Assembly (NCBI GenBank): GCA_902826775.1
Contig: CADEHE010000008.1
Coordinates: 1 to 64,000 of the forward strand
Origin: an uncultured Pseudomonadota bacterium
GTDB lineage: Bacteria > Pseudomonadota > Gammaproteobacteria > Burkholderiales > JALYOK01
DNA: 64,000 nucleotides
Direction of reading: 5' to 3'
Positions 7,178 to 21,872 of the stretch are shown piece after piece. Numbering within the stretch: the first letter of the stretch is position 1; each line of letters opens with the position of its first letter. A model generated the notes under the pieces. That model searched no databases and was not told the DNA's origin. It saw only the letters and a list, made by a program, of their open reading frames with translations. A program made the position numbers and the translations under genes.

Positions 7178-8116
7178 ATGTCAGCGCCCACGAATACCCC
7201 CTTGCCCGAAGGCTATTCGCTGCAGAACTATCGCATCGAGCGTCTGCTTAGCCGCGGCGGTTTCAGTTTCGTATATTTGGGCCGCGACGAGAACGAAGAC
7301 GCGGTCGCCATAAAAGAGTACATGCCGAACGCGCTGGTTGTGCGGCGCGAAGGCGTGGCGGTGAAACTGGAGGGCGACGAGCAGCAGATTTCCACTTTCC
7401 GGCAGGGTTTGCGTTGCTTCTTCGAGGAGGGCCGCGCGCTGGCGAGAATCGATCATCCCAATGTGGTGCGCGTGGACAACTTCTTTCGCGCCAACGAAAC
7501 GGTCTACATGGTGATGAAGTACATGCGCGGGCGCACGCTGCAGTTTCATATTCAGAATCACCAGCAGCGCTTCAACGACGGGTTTCTGCGGCGTATCTTT
7601 TTGAACCTGCTGAATGGCCTGCGCGAAGTGCATGCGCACAAGATCGTGCATTTGGATATCAAGCCGGCCAACGTTTACATCAACATGGACGGCACGCCGG
7701 TTTTGTTGGATTTCGGCGCGGCGCGCCAGATCCTTGCCAGCGAAGGGCAGAACTTGCGCCCGTTGTACACTGCGGGTTTCGCCGCCCCGGAGCAATATCA
7801 CGGCATGCAAAACGTTGGGCCATGGACGGATATCTACAGCGTGGGCGCGACCATGTACGCTTGCATCACCGGCAAGCCGCCGCAACCGGCTGACGAACGC
7901 GAGCGCGAAGACAAGCTGCAACCGTTGCAGAAGGCTTGGATCAGCCGCTTCAGCCGTGATTTGCTGTCGATCATCGATTGGTGCTTGGCGCTGCGCAGCG
8001 ATGATCGCCCGCCGTCGGTGTTCGCGCTGCAGAAAGCGTTAAGTCAGGTGCAAGAAGACGCGCCGGTGCAAAATGTAATACGCAGCATTACCTCACGTTT
8101 CGAGCAGTCCAAGTAG
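7178..8116 (+). CDS. Serine/threonine protein kinase (Hanks type)
   Basis: A cytoplasmic eukaryotic-like kinase of 312 residues. The glycine-rich loop (LLSRGGFSFVYLGRD, about residues 23-37), the VAIKEYMP lysine, the catalytic loop HLDIKPANVYIN and the DFGAAR metal-binding motif are all present, so it should be active. It has no transmembrane helix and no PASTA repeats, so it is probably not a receptor kinase. The next gene, 9 bases downstream, is a PP2C phosphatase, giving a matched kinase/phosphatase pair. The substrate is unknown. It diverges from yicC across a 238-bp region that should contain both promoters. Confidence 0.92.
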   Translation: MSAPTNTPLPEGYSLQNYRIERLLSRGGFSFVYLGRDENEDAVAIKEYMPNALVVRREGVAVKLEGDEQQISTFRQGLRCFFEEGRALARIDHPNVVRVDNFFRANETVYMVMKYMRGRTLQFHIQNHQQRFNDGFLRRIFLNLLNGLREVHAHKIVHLDIKPANVYINMDGTPVLLDFGAARQILASEGQNLRPLYTAGFAAPEQYHGMQNVGPWTDIYSVGATMYACITGKPPQPADEREREDKLQPLQKAWISRFSRDLLSIIDWCLALRSDDRPPSVFALQKALSQVQEDAPVQNVIRSITSRFEQSK

Positions 8117-8125
8117 CCGCGACGC

Positions 8126-9037
8126 ATGCGTTTTCTGATCTTTCAAGATACCCAGCGCGGCGCGCGTGCCAACAACGAAGACCGCGTCGGCTATTTCTAC
8201 ACGCGCGATGCGCTGCTGATGGTGGTCGCCGACGGCATGGGGGGGCACAATCAAGGCGAAGTCGCCGCGGAGATCGCGATCGAAGTGCTATCCAAGCGCT
8301 TTCAAAACGAAGCCAAGCCGACGCTGCAGCATCCGCGTCAATTTCTGCGCGATGCTTTCTTCAACGCGCACGATGCGATCATGGAATACGGCACTGGCAG
8401 AAAGCTGCCGGAGTCACCGCGCACCACCTGCGTTGCTTGCGTGGTGCAGGACGGCAAAGCCTATTGGGCGCACGCGGGTGATTCGCGCCTGCTGTATTTT
8501 CGCGCCGGCAAACTGGCGCAGCGCACCAAAGATCATTCCTATGTCGGCAAGCTGCTGGCGATGGGTGCGTTGCGCGAAGACCAAATTGCCGGGCACCCGG
8601 CGCGCAACCGGATTTTTAGTTGCCTCGGCGGCAATGTGCTGCCGCAGATCGAACTCTCCGAGGAAGTCGTGCTTACGCGTGGCGACACCATCTTGCTTGC
8701 CACCGATGGGTTTTGGGAGCCGATCACCACCGGCCGCATCGAAATCGCCCTGGCGCAGAGCAGCATCGTCGACTGCCTGCCGAGTTTGGTCACGGCGGCG
8801 ATCGCACAATCGGGCGAGCGCGCCGATAACACTTCAGTCGTCGCCATGACCTGGGATCCCCCAGGCAACAATGACCCGCAGATGATTTCCACCATCGACA
8901 TGGATGCCAAAGGTTTTAGCAGCGCGGTGCTGTCAAATCTGCCTGAAACCATCGGCCAAGCTTCGCAGATATCCGACGCGGAAATCGACAAGGCAATCGC
9001 AGAGATTCAAACCGCCATCAAGAGGAAGCCGGTTTGA
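8126..9037 (+). CDS. PP2C-family protein serine/threonine phosphatase
   Basis: A Mn/Mg-dependent PPM-type phosphatase of 303 residues. Metal-binding motifs are visible: NNEDRVG near the N-terminus, [12 protein letters not shown], the AHAGDSRL strand and ATDGFWE. The C-terminal 45 residues after the catalytic core have no recognised domain. It probably dephosphorylates targets of the kinase encoded just upstream. Its stop codon overlaps the TTG start of rph, so the signalling pair is in one transcription unit with housekeeping genes. Confidence 0.92.
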
Positions 9038-15054: not shown

Positions 15055-18000
15055 ATGTCCGCTCATCTTCCGCGTGGCTGGATAGCCTGCGGCCTCGTGC
15101 CGTTGTTGATTTCTTGTGGTGGTGGCAAGCCGGATTCCGCCAGCTCTCAAACTCGCTCACTTGCGCGCGCGCAAGCTGCTGCGCCCTCGCAAGCACGCTG
15201 GTCGGCGTTGCGAACGCTACCGCTCGTGCCGGTATCGGCGGCGCTGATGCCCAACGGCAGAGTGCTCATGTGGTCGGCAGAGGAGAAGTTCAGTTTCGGT
15301 GCCGCCACCGGCCGCACCTACAGTTTGACGTACGACCCTGCCGCCAATTCGGTCAGCGAACGCACTGTGACCGAAACTGCGCACAACATGTTTTGTACCG
15401 GCACGACCAACCTCGCGGACGGGCGCTTGTTCATCAACGGCGGCATCAGTGCCGCGAATACCAGCATTTTCGATCCGGTCACCTCCGCGTGGACCACCGG
15501 CCCCGCCATGAATATTCCGCGCGGCTATCAAGCCAACACGCTGACGCAAGACGGCAGCGTCCTGACGCTCGGCGGGTCGTGGAGCGGCGGTGTCGGCAAT
15601 AAACACGGCGAAATTTGGACCGCAGGCGGCGGCTGGCGGCGCTTGACCGGCGTGCCGATCGATCCGTTTCTCTCGCCCGATCCTTCGCGCAACTTCGGCG
15701 GCGACAGTCACTTCTGGCTGATCCCTGCCGGCAACGGCAAAGTATTCCATCCGGGACCCGGTGTGAACATGCACTGGATCGATACCAACGGCAACGGCCG
15801 GGTGATCGATGCTGGTGTGCGCGGCGACGATCAGTTCAGCGTCAGCGGCAATACCGTAATGTACGACGCCGGCAAAATTCTCAAGACCGGGGGTGGGCCG
15901 GGTTACGACAGTGTCAATGCCAACGCCAATTCCTATGTGATCGATATCAGCGCCGGTGCGACGGTGCGCAAGTTGGCGCCGATGGCTTATCGCCGCGCCT
16001 TCCATAACAGTGTGGTGTTGCCCAACGGGCAAGTCGTCATCATCGGCGGGCAGACTTACGCAGTCGGCTTCTCCGACAACAATTCCGTGCTGGTGCCGGA
16101 ACTATGGGATCCGGCCAGCGAAACTTTCACCGCGCTCGCGCCGATTGCCGCGCCGCGCAACTATCACAGCGTCGCGCTGCTGCTACCGGACGCGCGGGTG
16201 CTCTCCGCGGGTGGGGGCTTATGCGGCGCCGGCTGCGCGGCCAACCATCCCGATCTGCAAATTCTTACGCCACATTACTTGCTGAATCCCGACGGCACGG
16301 CGGCGACGCGCCCTGTCATTACGAGTGCGCCGGCTGCGATGCAGTACGGTCAATCGGTTCAAGTGTTCACCAATACGCCGGTGGCGGCATTCTCGATTGT
16401 GCGTGTGTCGTCAACGACGCACACGGTCAACAACGATCAGCGTCGTTTGGCGCTGAGCTTCCGCGCGAATGGCGGCAACAGCTATCAAGTCGACATGCCG
16501 ACCAATCCCGGCTGGGCACTGCCCGGGGATTGGATGCTGTTCGCGATGAGTGCTGACGGTGTGCCCTCGGTCGCTAAGATCGTGCGCATCTCGCGCAGCG
16601 GCGCTGCCACTATCGCGCCGATCGACGATCAGAGCGCGACGGCCGGATCGCCAGTTGCGGCCGTGCAGCCCAGCGTTACGCTACCGGGCGGCGTGGTGGC
16701 GACGTACGCCGCGAGCGGTTTGCCGTCTGGCTTGTTTATCGACGCTGGCACGGGCCGCATCAGCGGCACGCCGACCCAAGCCGGGCGCTATCCGGTAAGT
16801 GTGCTTGCGGCCTCTGGCGGCGTAACAGTCTCGACCGATTTCGTCTGGAACGTCGAAAGTCCCGGTGCACTGATGCAGGGCTTAAAGGGCGAATATGTGC
16901 TCGGCAGAACCTTTGGCGTCGCGCCGGTGCGTACCGTGACCGAGGCGGTGGACTTCAATTGGGGCACGGGCGCGCCAGGGGCGGGCGTTAGCGTCGATAA
17001 TTTCGCTGTGCGCTGGAGCGGCTGGTTGTTGCCTACCGTGAGCGGTAACCATACCTTGCAAACACAATCGGACGATGGTGTGCGCGTCTGGGTCAATGAC
17101 GTGCTGGTGATCGACAATTGGACTGATCACGCCGCAACTTTGAACAATAGCGCTGCGTTGGCGCTGACGGCCGGTGTGCGTGTGCCGATCAAAGTGGAAT
17201 TCTACGAAGCCGGTGGCGAAGCAGTCATGAGCCTGCGCTGGGCGACGCCTGGCAATGCTAGTTTCACGCCGATCGGTTTAGCTAATTTGCGCAGCAGCAG
17301 CGCGTTGCCGAACCAGGTGCCGGTGATCTCGGCGCCCGCGGTGCCGGTTACGTATCAGGGCCAAGCTGTGAGCGTCGGTGTCAGCGCTTCGGACCCAGAC
17401 GGCGATACGCTGCGCTTCAGTGCGGCTGGCCTGCCAACCGGGCTTGCACTCAATGCGAACACTGGCGTAATTGGCGGCATACCAACTGCGCCTGGCGTGT
17501 TTGACGTTACCGTCGGCGTGGACGATGGCCGCGGCGGCAGTGCGGTGACACGCTTCAACTGGAGCGTAGCGGACGCGGTGCCGGTGATACAGCCGGTGGC
17601 AACGGCCGCAATCAGCGCCGGCGGCAGCATTACTTACACGGCGAGCACCGACACGATCGGCAGCTACTCCTACCACTGGGACTTCGGCGATGGCAGTTCG
17701 CAGGATTGGTCAACGGCGCCTTCCGCCACCCACAGCTACGCGGCCGCAGGCGTGTACTTTGTTACCGTTACCGTGCGCACCAGCGACGGCCGCACTTCAG
17801 CGCGCAGTTTCTGGCAGGCAGTGCAGGGCACTACTGGGCAAGGCGGGCGCTCGTCCTCGCCCATTTTGTTCGAGGCGCGCGCGAACGCTGCTGCGCGCGT
17901 ATGGGCGGTGAACCCCGACAACGACTCGGTGAGCGTATTTGACGCCGCGATGCGAACGCGCTTGGCTGAAATTGCCGTAGGTAGTGCGCCGCGCACGCTG

Positions 18001-20148
18001 GCGCAAGCGCCGGATGGGCGCGTGTGGGTCGTCAACAAGGGGGCGGCGACGATCAGCGTGATTTCGCCGTCGAGTCTTACCGTGGTGCAGACCATCGCAT
18101 TGTCGCGCGCCTCGCAGCCGTTCGGCATCGTCATGGCCGCGGACGGGAGCGCCTATGTTGCACAGGAGGCAACAGGCAATATCACGCGTATCGCGGCCAA
18201 CGGCACGCCAGGCGCCAGCGTTAATGTCGGTGCCAACGTGCGCCATCTCGCGCTCGACGCCGCCGGCACGCAACTGTACGCCGCGCGCTTCATCACGCCC
18301 ACGCTGCCCGGCGAAGCCACGGCGAGCGTGCAACCTAGCGCCACGCGCGGCGGCGAATTGCTGGTGCTCGATGCCGGTAGTTTGACGGTTCAGCGCATCA
18401 TCATTTTGCAGCACAGCGAAAAGGCCGATAACACGATTCAAGCGCGCGGTATTCCCAACTACTTGGGCGCGCCGGTGATTGCACCCGATGGTGCCAGCGC
18501 GTGGGTGCCGAGCAAGCAAGACAACATCAAGCGCGGCAAGTTGCGCGACGGGCTGGACCTTACTTTCGAAAGCACCGTGCGAGCGATTTCTTCGCGCATC
18601 GATCTAGATGCGCAAGCCGAAGATGCGACCGCGCGAATCGATCACGACAATTCCGGCGTGGCCAGCGCCGCGCTATTCCACCCGAGCGGCACTTACATGT
18701 TTGTCGCGCTGGAGGCGAGCCGGCACGTGGCGGTGGTCGATGCCATCGGCAAGCGGGAGTTGTTCCGCGTCGATGTCGGCCGCGCGCCGCAAGGGCTAGC
18801 GGTTTCCGCCGACGGCTTGACGCTGTATGTGCAGAACTTCATGGACCGCACTGTCAGCGTGCTTGATCTGACGCGCTTAATCGGCTTCGGCGAGTCGCTG
18901 TTGCCCGTGGTGGCCACCATGGCCAGCGTGGGCACCGAAAGACTTTCCGCACAAGTGCTGCGCGGCAAGCAATTCTTCTACGACGCACGCGATGTGCGCA
19001 TGTCGCGCGACGCTTACATTAGTTGCGCGAGCTGCCACAACGACGGCGGCCACGATGGCCGCACCTGGGACTTTACCGGATTCGGCGAAGGCTTGCGCAA
19101 CACCATCAGTCTACGCGGCCGCGCCGGCGCGCAAGGGCGCCTGCACTGGAGCGCGAACTTCGACGAAGTGCAGGACTTCGAAGGCCAGATCCGCAATTTG
19201 GCGCAAGGCACCGGCCTAATGACCAACGCTCAATTCAATACCGGCACGCGCAGTCAGCCGCTGGGTGACAGCAAGACTGGCGTCAGCGGCGATCTCGATG
19301 CGCTGGCAGCCTATGTCGCATCGTTATCTAGCTTCGATCTTTCTCCTTACCGCAACGCCGATGGTAGCTTGACCGCCACGGCAGCATCGGGCCGCACGGT
19401 GTTCGCGGCGCAGTGCGCAACATGCCACGGTGGCAACGATTTCACTGATAGCGCCAGTGGCGCGTTGCGTAACATCGGCACCGTAAAGCCGGCAAGCGGC
19501 AATCGCCTGGGCGCAGCGTTGACCGGTATCGATACGCCGACTTTGCGCGATGCTTGGGCGAGCGCGCCGTACTTGCACGACAGCTCGGCCGCAACGATCG
19601 AAGATGCAGTGCGGGCACACAACACGTTTTCCTTGAGCAGCGCCGATGTCACAAGCGTCAGTGAATTTGTGCGCCAAATCGGACGCGAAGAAGCGGCAGT
19701 TGCGCCGCCCAGCACGACCGGTTCCGGCTTGCGCGGGGAGTACTTTGGCAATGTTTCGTTGAGCGGGACACCGAGCCTTACGCGCATACAGGCGGTCGAC
19801 TTCGATTGGGGCACCGCTTCGCCGGGTGCACCAATCGCGGCTAACAACTTCTCCGTGCGTTGGAGCGGCACGGTGCGCGCTGCAACGACGGGCACGTATC
19901 GCTTTCAAACGCGTTCCGATGATGGCGTACGCCTGTATGTCAACGGCAATCTGGTCATCAACAACTGGACCGACCACGGGCCGACCAACAATAGCAGCAC
20001 GTCCATCAGTTTGACCGCTGGACAGCGCTACGCGATTCGCATGGAGTATTACGAACGCAGCGGCGGCGCAGTGGCGCGTCTGCGCTGGCTAACACCAGGC
20101 AGCTTGAGTTACGTGGCTATTCCGGCGAGCGCGCTGTACGCGCCTTGA
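15055..20148 (+). CDS. Multidomain lipoprotein: copper radical oxidase, PA14, PKD, YVTN propeller, diheme peroxidase-like
   Basis: A 1697-residue exported protein. A lipobox LIS-C21 suggests an outer-membrane lipoprotein. Residues about 45-515 match the galactose oxidase/glyoxal oxidase fold (Kelch propeller plus C-terminal DUF1929 domain). All catalytic residues align: C114 and Y158 for the Cys-Tyr cofactor, W176 in GGSWSGG, Y370-H371, and H456. Then follow an Ig-like domain (520-602), PA14 (609-745), a cadherin/Ig-like domain (757-842), PKD (845-910), a YVTN-type beta-propeller (about 945-1275), a cytochrome c peroxidase-like module with CASCH at 1324-1328 and CATCH at 1454-1458, and a second PA14 (1558-1690). 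The substrate is not predictable; PA14 domains suggest glycan binding. A cytochrome c gene and a Sco gene follow with overlapping codons. The fusion of oxidase and heme modules is unusual. Confidence 0.9.
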   Translation: MSAHLPRGWIACGLVPLLISCGGGKPDSASSQTRSLARAQAAAPSQARWSALRTLPLVPVSAALMPNGRVLMWSAEEKFSFGAATGRTYSLTYDPAANSVSERTVTETAHNMFCTGTTNLADGRLFINGGISAANTSIFDPVTSAWTTGPAMNIPRGYQANTLTQDGSVLTLGGSWSGGVGNKHGEIWTAGGGWRRLTGVPIDPFLSPDPSRNFGGDSHFWLIPAGNGKVFHPGPGVNMHWIDTNGNGRVIDAGVRGDDQFSVSGNTVMYDAGKILKTGGGPGYDSVNANANSYVIDISAGATVRKLAPMAYRRAFHNSVVLPNGQVVIIGGQTYAVGFSDNNSVLVPELWDPASETFTALAPIAAPRNYHSVALLLPDARVLSAGGGLCGAGCAANHPDLQILTPHYLLNPDGTAATRPVITSAPAAMQYGQSVQVFTNTPVAAFSIVRVSSTTHTVNNDQRRLALSFRANGGNSYQVDMPTNPGWALPGDWMLFAMSADGVPSVAKIVRISRSGAATIAPIDDQSATAGSPVAAVQPSVTLPGGVVATYAASGLPSGLFIDAGTGRISGTPTQAGRYPVSVLAASGGVTVSTDFVWNVESPGALMQGLKGEYVLGRTFGVAPVRTVTEAVDFNWGTGAPGAGVSVDNFAVRWSGWLLPTVSGNHTLQTQSDDGVRVWVNDVLVIDNWTDHAATLNNSAALALTAGVRVPIKVEFYEAGGEAVMSLRWATPGNASFTPIGLANLRSSSALPNQVPVISAPAVPVTYQGQAVSVGVSASDPDGDTLRFSAAGLPTGLALNANTGVIGGIPTAPGVFDVTVGVDDGRGGSAVTRFNWSVADAVPVIQPVATAAISAGGSITYTASTDTIGSYSYHWDFGDGSSQDWSTAPSATHSYAAAGVYFVTVTVRTSDGRTSARSFWQAVQGTTGQGGRSSSPILFEARANAAARVWAVNPDNDSVSVFDAAMRTRLAEIAVGSAPRTLAQAPDGRVWVVNKGAATISVISPSSLTVVQTIALSRASQPFGIVMAADGSAYVAQEATGNITRIAANGTPGASVNVGANVRHLALDAAGTQLYAARFITPTLPGEATASVQPSATRGGELLVLDAGSLTVQRIIILQHSEKADNTIQARGIPNYLGAPVIAPDGASAWVPSKQDNIKRGKLRDGLDLTFESTVRAISSRIDLDAQAEDATARIDHDNSGVASAALFHPSGTYMFVALEASRHVAVVDAIGKRELFRVDVGRAPQGLAVSADGLTLYVQNFMDRTVSVLDLTRLIGFGESLLPVVATMASVGTERLSAQVLRGKQFFYDARDVRMSRDAYISCASCHNDGGHDGRTWDFTGFGEGLRNTISLRGRAGAQGRLHWSANFDEVQDFEGQIRNLAQGTGLMTNAQFNTGTRSQPLGDSKTGVSGDLDALAAYVASLSSFDLSPYRNADGSLTATAASGRTVFAAQCATCHGGNDFTDSASGALRNIGTVKPASGNRLGAALTGIDTPTLRDAWASAPYLHDSSAATIEDAVRAHNTFSLSSADVTSVSEFVRQIGREEAAVAPPSTTGSGLRGEYFGNVSLSGTPSLTRIQAVDFDWGTASPGAPIAANNFSVRWSGTVRAATTGTYRFQTRSDDGVRLYVNGNLVINNWTDHGPTNNSSTSISLTAGQRYAIRMEYYERSGGAVARLRWLTPGSLSYVAIPASALYAP

Positions 20149-20642
20149 TCGAGCGCCTCAAGCGGTACGCGGTTGCTGGGTGGTACAAGCCGAGCCAGGT
20201 GCAAGACGTGAGGGTCCCCGCCGGTGGGCGCTGGATACTGTTGTTGCTGTCGCTGCTACTCGCGGCCGGCGCGGTGGTGCAGCAGTGGCGCGAGCACCAG
20301 CGCTTGCAGCGCGGGCAGCTGATTTACCAGCAAGGTTGGCCCGGCGCAAACCTGGCGGGTGATGATTCCAGTTTGCCGGAGCTGGCTACGCGTTGCGTAA
20401 ACTGTCACGATGCAGGCAGCAGCGCCCAAAGCGCGTTCGCGCCGGCGTTAAATGCCGCTGCGCTGAGGCAACTGCACCCGCGCCGCGGCGGACCGCCTTC
20501 GCGCTACGATGAATCTTCGTTGTGCAAGCTGCTGCGCGAAGGCGTCGATCCGGCTTGGGTGCAAATTCCGCGCGCGATGCCGCGCTATAACGTGAGCGAT
20601 GAGGATTGCGCCGCCTTGTGGCGTTACTTGGTGAGCCGATGA
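20145..20642 (+). CDS. Membrane-anchored monoheme cytochrome c
   Basis: A 165-residue protein with one N-terminal transmembrane helix (about residues 29-45) and a periplasmic domain carrying one heme-binding motif CVNCH. The distal Met ligand is probably in the PRAMPRY segment. The TTG start overlaps the TGA stop of the giant oxidase gene (TTGA), implying translational coupling. It is likely an electron carrier between the oxidase/peroxidase lipoprotein and the respiratory chain; this role is inferred from position only. Confidence 0.82.
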   Translation: MIERLKRYAVAGWYKPSQVQDVRVPAGGRWILLLLSLLLAAGAVVQQWREHQRLQRGQLIYQQGWPGANLAGDDSSLPELATRCVNCHDAGSSAQSAFAPALNAAALRQLHPRRGGPPSRYDESSLCKLLREGVDPAWVQIPRAMPRYNVSDEDCAALWRYLVSR

Positions 20643-21244
20643 GCGTTCCCGCTTCGGAATCGCAACGCAGCGCGTTTTCGCCGCAGTTAAAGCGGCGCGG
20701 CTTACTCGCGCTCGGTGCTGCGGCGCTGCTGCCGCGCGTTGTACACGCGCACGCGCCGCTCGGCCCGATCGAACCGCCGCTGGCAGCGCCTGCACTGCCA
20801 TTGACGCTGCATGACGGCAGCGCGACCGACTTGCCGCGCTTGCTCAAAGGCCGCTGGAGCGCGCTGCAATTGATGTTTACCGGGTGCAGCGCGACGTGTC
20901 CCATTCAAGGTGCGGTGTTCGCCGCGCTGCAAGGCAAGTTAGCCGCGACGTTACCGCAAGCGCAGCTTCTATCGGTGAGTATCGATCCGCTGAACGACAC
21001 CGCCGCTGCCCTTGCTGCGTGGCGCCAGCGCTTCAGTGCGCAGGCGATATGGTTGGCTGCCGCGCCACCGGTCAAACACGCGGATGTGCTGCTCGATTTT
21101 GTCGATAGCCGTGCCGTGGGCAGCGATCGCCATACCGCACAAACCTTGCTGTTCGACAACCACGGGCGCTTTGCCTATCGCTGCGCGGAATTCGCGAGCG
21201 CCCGCGATATCGCCCGCTTGATGCAGCAAATGGCGCGCCGCTAA
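20639..21244 (+). CDS. SCO1/SenC family copper chaperone
   Basis: A thioredoxin-fold copper-binding protein of 201 residues. It has an N-terminal hydrophobic signal preceded by KRR (possibly Tat-dependent), the metal-binding CSATCP motif (CxxxCP) and the downstream His in SDRHTAQTLLFD. The ATG at 20639 overlaps the stop codon of the cytochrome gene (ATGA). Sco proteins load copper into cytochrome oxidase, and in Streptomyces a Sco protein is needed to metallate the radical oxidase GlxA. Here, next to a galactose-oxidase-like gene and away from any cox genes, it most likely supplies copper to that oxidase. Confidence 0.86.
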   Translation: MSVPASESQRSAFSPQLKRRGLLALGAAALLPRVVHAHAPLGPIEPPLAAPALPLTLHDGSATDLPRLLKGRWSALQLMFTGCSATCPIQGAVFAALQGKLAATLPQAQLLSVSIDPLNDTAAALAAWRQRFSAQAIWLAAAPPVKHADVLLDFVDSRAVGSDRHTAQTLLFDNHGRFAYRCAEFASARDIARLMQQMARR

Positions 21245-21431
21245 CGTAGGAGGCGTTTGCGTATCAGGTCGGCTTTGTCTAGACACCCTCAAGCGAAAGC
21301 CCTTAGACTGTGTGAGCCTTGCCACATTCCTTCCAATACTCAAGCCAGAATAATCTGATGATGCAGATATATCCTGACTTCTGTTTGGATACGGTTGGTG
21401 GTATAGCCTTTTTGCAGCGAAGGGGGTGACC

Positions 21432-21872
21432 GTGAATGCAGCAAAGCAGTGGTTGATAGCAGTGTCATTTGTCGGGCTAGCTAGTTGCTCTGGCATGCAA
21501 CAGCCGTCGAGCGAAGCAAGCTTGTATCAACGCCTGGGCGGCAAGGCGGCGATCAGTGCCGTGGTGGACGACTTCATCGGCAATATTGCGGAGGATCGCC
21601 GCGTGAATCTTTTCTTCGCCCATGCCGATCCGGTGCGGCTGAAGCAAATGCTGGTCGATCAGATTTGCGCGGGAAGCGGCGGGCCGTGCAAGTACACCGG
21701 GCGCGACATGAAAACGGCGCACCAGGAAATGGCCATTACCGAGGCCCACTTCAATTGGGTCGCGGAAGATTTGGTCAAGAGCTTGAACAAGTTCAAGGTG
21801 CCGGCGAAGGAGCAGAACGAGTTGCTCGCCTTGCTTGGTGCGATGAAGAACGACATCGTTAATACCAAGTGA
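21432..21872 (+). CDS. Group 1 truncated haemoglobin, predicted lipoprotein
   Basis: A 2-on-2 globin of the TrHbN group. After a short signal with lipobox LAS-C19, the core reads LYQRLGGKAAISAVVDDFIGNI, then the proximal His in TEAHFNWV. It should bind heme and O2 or NO outside the cytoplasm, which is less usual than the cytosolic forms. I prefer the GTG at 21432, spaced about 6 bases from an AAGGGGG ribosome-binding site, over the GTG at 21426 that overlaps it. No partner gene is evident; the dehalogenase follows after 10 bases. Confidence 0.85.
   Translation: MNAAKQWLIAVSFVGLASCSGMQQPSSEASLYQRLGGKAAISAVVDDFIGNIAEDRRVNLFFAHADPVRLKQMLVDQICAGSGGPCKYTGRDMKTAHQEMAITEAHFNWVAEDLVKSLNKFKVPAKEQNELLALLGAMKNDIVNTK

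Follow-up and report, generated by a model that had tools for sequence, protein, structure and literature searches.

Copper radical oxidases produce H2O2, and both the natural activator of these enzymes and the fate of their peroxide form a standing question; in laboratory work, horseradish peroxidase is added. A gene from an uncultured Pseudomonadota bacterium raises the question whether such an oxidase can carry its own heme partner. The gene lies in a stretch of 64,000 nucleotides (contig CADEHE010000008.1, positions 1 to 64,000; hereafter the window), and a first, sequence-only reading proposed that it encodes a self-contained exported oxidase, in which a heme module in the same chain either removes the H2O2 or passes electrons to the respiratory chain, and which draws on a copper supply of its own.

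Architecture of the fusion protein and its operon

The oxidase and the diheme unit are indeed encoded in one open frame (Table 1), with the domains in the order lipobox signal, AA5 oxidase, Ig-like domain (He_PIG), PA14, He_PIG, PKD, YVTN propeller, diheme domain and PA14. The same join is found in at least 80 loci, and these single frames rule out an artefact of assembly or gene calling as well as a chance join. The signal peptide includes the lipobox LISC, in agreement with the predicted export as a lipoprotein. In 27 full-length members of the family, the accessory modules comprise PA14 (13), F5/8-type C (10), jacalin (3) and AbfB (2) domains, and their recurrence suggests that they may bind carbohydrate.

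Table 1. Features of the fusion gene and of the two genes that follow it (window positions).
Feature	Position	Strand	Basis
Fusion lipoprotein, 1697 aa	15055..20148	+	Single ORF; homologous single-frame ORFs in at least 80 loci
Signal peptide with lipobox L18-I19-S20-C21	15055..15117	+	Sequence; lipobox-like motif in 53/80 homologues
AA5 galactose-oxidase domain, residues 45-513	15187..16593	+	phmmer, residue table, homologue fold match
First PA14, about residues 607-742	16873..17280	+	Domain search; discoidin-type domain instead in L007
He_PIG and PKD linker domains, residues 756-918	17320..17808	+	Domain search
YVTN seven-bladed propeller, about residues 940-1280	17872..18894	+	AF2 model; like hydrazine synthase beta subunit
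Diheme CCP/MauG/HZS-gamma-type domain, about residues 1295-1550	18937..19704	+	Pfam, profile search, alignment
Second PA14, residues 1557-1695	19723..20139	+	Domain search
Membrane-anchored monoheme cytochrome c, CVNCH, N-terminal hydrophobic stretch	20145..20642	+	TTG start within the stop codon of the fusion gene
Sco copper chaperone, C-SAT-CP	20639..21244	+	ATG at 20639 in ATGA overlap; Pfam SCO1-SenC 8.6e-12

The overlaps of stop and start codons which had been described among the genes for the fusion, the cytochrome c and a CxxxCP Sco protein are seen at both junctions. The CxxCH motif and M145 of the cytochrome c are invariant in 30/30 sequences (the window protein and 29 homologues), as are two further cysteines outside the heme motif, C127 and C155; a PDB search with this cytochrome c alone gave no match. 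The Sco protein carries the CxxxC motif and distal histidine of its family, and the ligands C94, C98 and H176 (numbered from the TTG at 20606) are invariant in all 46 sequences compared. The genome holds five Sco-like genes including that of the operon, which is therefore an extra copy, and the adjoining position and invariant ligands support the dedicated copper supply that had been postulated. A scan for promoters and terminators around the operon performed no better than on shuffled sequences, and a search of the window against Rfam returned one tRNA and nothing else. Directly downstream of the operon lies a gene for a lipoprotein-like bacterial (truncated) globin (21426-21872; Pfam Bac_globin 1.4e-14), which is not a recurrent neighbour, and elsewhere in the window (7178-9037) genes for a Ser/Thr protein kinase and a PP2C phosphatase are adjacent to each other.

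A complete copper radical oxidase active site

The oxidase half is matched by the bacterial galactose oxidase 9g8h (residues 45-513, 1e-150) and by the Fusarium enzyme 1gof (about 1e-116), both in phmmer searches, and the galactose-oxidase fold with its E-set domain is recognized in the window protein by Pfam (GO-like_E_set, 5.4e-23). For a homologue of another subgroup (group II, L079), the fold match to 9g8h reaches a Z score of 50.5 over 450 residues. All six active-site residues named in the sequence-only reading, C114, Y158, W176, Y370, H371 and H456, are present and align with C228, Y272, W290, Y495, H496 and H581 of the fungal galactose oxidase, so that both the Cys-Tyr cofactor pair (C114, Y158) and the Tyr/His/His copper ligands (Y370, H371, H456) are kept. 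By alignment, the window protein belongs to the AA5 copper radical oxidases, and its predicted active site is complete. An assignment to GlxA was rejected, the score against NF052501 being 143.9 bits for a cut-off of 800.

Galactose activity is marked by Arg330 together with Trp290 (PMC11267884). Only the tryptophan of this pair (W176) is present in the window protein, Gly215 taking the position of Arg330, and for this reason galactose itself is doubtful as the substrate, which is probably another primary alcohol or aldehyde.

Two further observations concern the oxidases. In two Leucothrix mucor MAGs (L056, L059), Ala replaces the cofactor Cys of the fused oxidase, and the Tyr, both His and both hemes are kept; these proteins would be natural variants without the thioether. 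Moreover, the genome of the window encodes a second copper radical oxidase, a stand-alone, group II-type protein of 35% identity (L045, G000:C2:127992-129467), near which there is no Sco or cytochrome c of the operon's families, while the opposite strand, some 1.3 kb upstream, has a gene for a heme-free YVTN propeller.

Likeness of the heme half to hydrazine synthase beta-gamma

The two heme motifs described earlier, CASCH at 1324 (C1324/C1327/H1328) and CATCH at 1454 (C1454/C1457/H1458), are both present, and both lie inside the diheme domain, which is identified by Pfam as CCP_MauG (6.6e-8; 33.8 bits for a cut-off of 25.6). They are invariant in 72/72 members of the family, together with H1364, W1365 and E1376, the residues of a distal pocket like that of peroxidases; in two loci outside this pattern (L069, L071), the second motif reads CxxxCH (CGTSCH, CGTNCH) rather than CxxCH.

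A profile of 54 family members finds the gamma subunit of hydrazine synthase as its best match (5e-22), followed by diheme peroxidases and MauG. The AlphaFold2 model of residues 940-1552 is of high confidence (pLDDT 90.3, pTM 0.91), and its propeller matches the beta subunit of hydrazine synthase (5c2v_B) with a Z score of 34.0 over 297 residues, in a search whose list was filled by propellers and is silent on the diheme fold.

In MauG, a Tyr is the distal ligand of the second heme. At the corresponding position, H1522 of the window protein, the family has His in 69/72 members, which differs from MauG and, in this one defining ligand, also from the classical bacterial diheme CCP. Since the diheme peroxidase of the window's own genome has Met at the position of H1522, the second heme of the fusion is likely bis-His, with H1522 as the predicted distal ligand. 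A bis-His second heme is known from hydrazine synthase gamma (PMC12607021), and homologues of the beta-gamma unit of this enzyme are widespread in environmental bacteria (PMC12758564). The fusion agrees with the hydrazine synthase beta-gamma type in the succession of YVTN propeller and diheme domain and in the bis-His second heme, as predicted from the alignment of its ligand; it scores 64.4 bits against the curated beta-gamma model (cut-off 1250), and no invariant Cys in the family alignment corresponds to the third heme-linking Cys of hydrazine synthase. On these comparisons, the heme half is similar both to the fused beta-gamma unit and to diheme peroxidases, and its closest solved relative is the former, not a classical peroxidase. 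In four loci (L041-L044), a related YVTN-diheme unit is fused not to an oxidase but to an LVIVD propeller with Big_5/PKD domains, which precede it.

Distribution of the fusion and exchange of oxidase domains

Other chains that join a galactose oxidase to a diheme peroxidase-like domain had been suggested as the first thing to look for. A scan of 84,980 species genomes gave at least 80 loci, which rank highest by their match over the entire protein and are hence biased toward fusions; besides the window, at least 79 of them and one plasmid have the oxidase, propeller and diheme domains in one frame. The single-frame set (n = 80) consists of L007 and L046-L125 without L091, which begins at a contig end, and it includes one locus (L062) whose diheme domain is itself interrupted by a stop. 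Among the matches listed, fusion loci occur in several Pseudomonadota families, in Verrucomicrobiota and in one Planctomycetota MAG. The plasmid CP099607 of a Comamonadaceae bacterium shows the same three-gene order, with discoidin domains replacing both PA14 domains. Evenly drawn genome samples show the fusion to be rare, at about 1% of genomes; in the sample of the class, for example, the profile matched 12 of 369 genomes, of which three (G000, G804 and G942, the window's genome included) encode the full fusion. No published description was found in the open-licence literature, and the oxidase-diheme fusion is apparently undescribed so far.

The oxidase domains fall into three groups, namely group I (the window type, in which the Trp is kept), group II (with Gly, Ser, Val or Asp at this position) and group III (Leucothrix and Verrucomicrobiota). 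Identity between group I and group II is 31% for the oxidases and 58% for the YVTN-diheme units, compared with 60% and 61% within group I. The groups had been defined on the oxidase tree before the tree of the diheme domains was built. In the latter, eight members of group II (IIb) are placed with group I (support 98/95), and the AU test rejects group II as one clade (p 0.017). This conflicting branching is more than faster divergence of the oxidase alone can explain, and the two trees are most simply read as an exchange of oxidase domains on a single diheme lineage. Because the pairing survives exchange of the oxidase, it points to a functional partnership between the two units.

Copper-handling and cytochrome genes beside the fusion

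Group I fusions are accompanied by the cytochrome c and Sco genes in all 22 loci with at least 1.5 kb of flank on each side, a count from which three loci without these genes were left out as they end at contig edges; in some loci, the two genes lie upstream or are divergent. The operon partners, whose variability would have argued against a functional unit, are thus conserved in the window's subgroup. Group IIb fusions have the Sco and not this cytochrome c (5/5 loci with flanks), and in the remaining group II, six of 18 loci with flanks have a Sco gene and 12 have neither gene nearby. Four Verrucomicrobiota loci (L057, L067, L106, L113) have an MbnP-MbnH gene directly upstream of the fusion. 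MbnP is a copper-binding family in NCBIfam, so that a copper-handling gene recurs beside the fusion, and this suggests MbnP-MbnH as a possible alternative copper partner in Verrucomicrobiota. Elsewhere, a separate MauG/MbnH-like diheme gene adjoins the fusion (L053, L164, L167), for which no MbnP match was found, and in L079, L080 and L122 the second gene upstream of the fusion, which precedes Sco, was judged by eye to encode a putative membrane-anchored Bcp-type peroxiredoxin.

Five stand-alone oxidases on plasmids of Burkholderiaceae (two of Cupriavidus and one each of Caballeronia, Burkholderia arboris and Paraburkholderia) have these Sco and cytochrome c genes as neighbours, and within 8-15 kb of them there is no diheme gene belonging to the fusion's family; as the Cupriavidus and B. 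arboris records are unannotated, their genes were called with profiles built here. Since stand-alone oxidases keep the pair, it is the oxidase which the Sco/cytochrome c pair appears to serve, and the diheme module is the added part. A role for the cytochrome c as electron partner to the heme module is not supported: the same pair flanks these five oxidases, which excludes an obligatory partnership with the heme unit, and the diheme unit of the IIb fusions is of the same lineage as that of group I, yet no such cytochrome c adjoins it. The cytochrome c may additionally feed the heme module, though this is not what retains it there. In L158, a Paraburkholderia sprentiae plasmid, the stand-alone oxidase with Sco adjoins an exopolysaccharide cluster with genes for glycosyltransferases, a polysaccharide deacetylase and a tyrosine autokinase, a setting that recalls GlxA and glycan synthesis.

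Relation to known systems

Each part of the fusion comes from a known family. AA5 galactose oxidases (Pseudoarthrobacter siccitolerans 9g43/9g8h; Fusarium 1gof) share the fold and the copper and thioether residues; unlike the fusion, no heme domain is seen in the matched chains, and the position of their R330 is Gly in the window protein. Streptomyces lividans likewise has a set of copper radical oxidase, Sco and heme peroxidase, in which maturation of GlxA at low copper requires Sco and DtpA, and DtpA uses the H2O2 made by GlxA (PMC4736821); these are, however, three separate proteins, with a peroxidase of the DyP type and an oxidase of another AA5 branch. In Colletotrichum, a tandem heme peroxidase activates its partner, a copper radical alcohol oxidase of family AA5, by one-electron oxidation (PMC9770985), but from separate genes, with a class II monoheme peroxidase and without a Sco reported there. 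The beta-gamma unit of hydrazine synthase and its environmental homologues share the propeller-diheme fusion and the bis-His second heme (PMC12758564), whereas the fusion described here has a copper oxidase attached, no alpha subunit and no invariant Cys that could form a third bond to heme. MbnP-MbnH also combines a diheme enzyme with a copper protein; in the four Verrucomicrobiota loci it is a neighbour gene rather than fused, and it is absent beside the window gene. The fusion is apparently a variant of the oxidase-plus-heme-peroxidase partnership of GlxA/DtpA and AlcOx/Perox.

How the two halves may work together

Our best explanation, to which we assign a probability of roughly 0.55, is a lipid-anchored AA5 oxidase with its own peroxide-reacting heme unit, whose copper would be loaded by Sco. 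The chemical steps are those which we infer from the architecture, the residues and their conservation, the gene linkage and the domain exchange. Delivery of copper by Sco would lead to formation of the Cys114-Tyr158 cofactor; a carbohydrate-like substrate would be held by the exchangeable PA14, discoidin, jacalin or AbfB modules, and oxidation of its alcohol or aldehyde group would yield H2O2. This peroxide would react at the His-ligated heme I (distal H1364/W1365/E1376), with electrons entering through the bis-His heme II, and would so be removed by the tethered diheme unit, whose heme, once oxidised, may also return inactive copper-tyrosine sites to the oxidised state. The cytochrome c of the operon would belong with the oxidase and Sco, in activation or in the redox state of the copper, and may also feed heme II.

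This reading is preferred because the residues for copper and the radical cofactor are kept and the hemes and distal residues are invariant, because the fusion is kept in about 80 loci among the matches listed and survives oxidase exchange, because a copper-handling gene (Sco; MbnP-MbnH) recurs beside it, and because GlxA/Sco/DtpA and the fungal tandem peroxidase are precedents. Against it count the kinship of the heme half with hydrazine synthase beta-gamma, whose heme gamma-I has NO and not H2O2 as its proposed substrate, and the replacement by H1522 of the Met of classical peroxidases, from which a low-potential heme II is expected; the 12 group II loci without Sco or cytochrome c and the two Leucothrix mucor proteins without the cofactor Cys weigh in the same direction.

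The term self-contained, in turn, was too strong. The linkers between oxidase and heme domains range from 119 to 684 residues in the family, and the whole-chain model of a compact homologue (pTM 0.61) gives no sign of a fixed copper-heme geometry. We therefore favour a heme unit that would be tethered to the oxidase, at high local concentration, over one wired to it at a fixed distance, and linkers of such varying length speak against a fixed route for electrons from copper to heme.

A more far-reaching version of the tethered, peroxide-reacting unit, which we hold only tentatively, is that the copper radical would be made and maintained in cis by the attached diheme unit, which would consume the enzyme's own H2O2, so that no external activator would be needed and little peroxide would be released. 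Rather doubtful is the alternative that the diheme unit is mainly a built-in activator, whose peroxide-oxidised heme would oxidise the resting Cu(II)-Tyr site by one electron to give the active radical. Full activity of copper radical oxidases in vitro does require a peroxidase, and the two units stay joined through oxidase exchange; the fungal pair, moreover, works in trans via one-electron oxidation, as seen by EPR (PMC9770985). The variable linkers, with no predicted fixed contact, and the existence of stand-alone oxidases which have cytochrome c and Sco without a diheme unit speak against this alternative.

It is improbable that the heme unit is an electron outlet, from the copper site through the hemes and the cytochrome c to the respiratory chain, in an enzyme that would act as a dehydrogenase and make little H2O2: in the window, the genes for the fusion and the cytochrome c overlap, and the latter adjoins all group I fusions with flanks, but it also accompanies oxidases without the heme unit and is absent beside IIb fusions, and the variable linkers count against this reading as well. 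Just as improbable is a separate substrate of the heme unit (NO or another small molecule, for example), with a tether that serves localisation alone, for which the nearest solved relatives (hydrazine synthase gamma and beta) and the related units fused to LVIVD propellers speak, and against which stand the missing invariant counterpart of the third-cysteine heme link and the repeated pairing with different oxidase domains, which it would leave unexplained.

Significance

With a heme unit built into the oxidase in at least about 80 species, activation and H2O2 handling become addressable with variants of a single protein. The gene linkage, furthermore, associates the AA5 oxidases of Betaproteobacteria with a Sco and cytochrome c pair of their own, whether or not the heme unit is present. 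A practical use would be a self-activating, low-peroxide alcohol oxidase, and if the cis-activated reading is true, the pairing of these modules would have been retained in two or more phyla while domains were exchanged.
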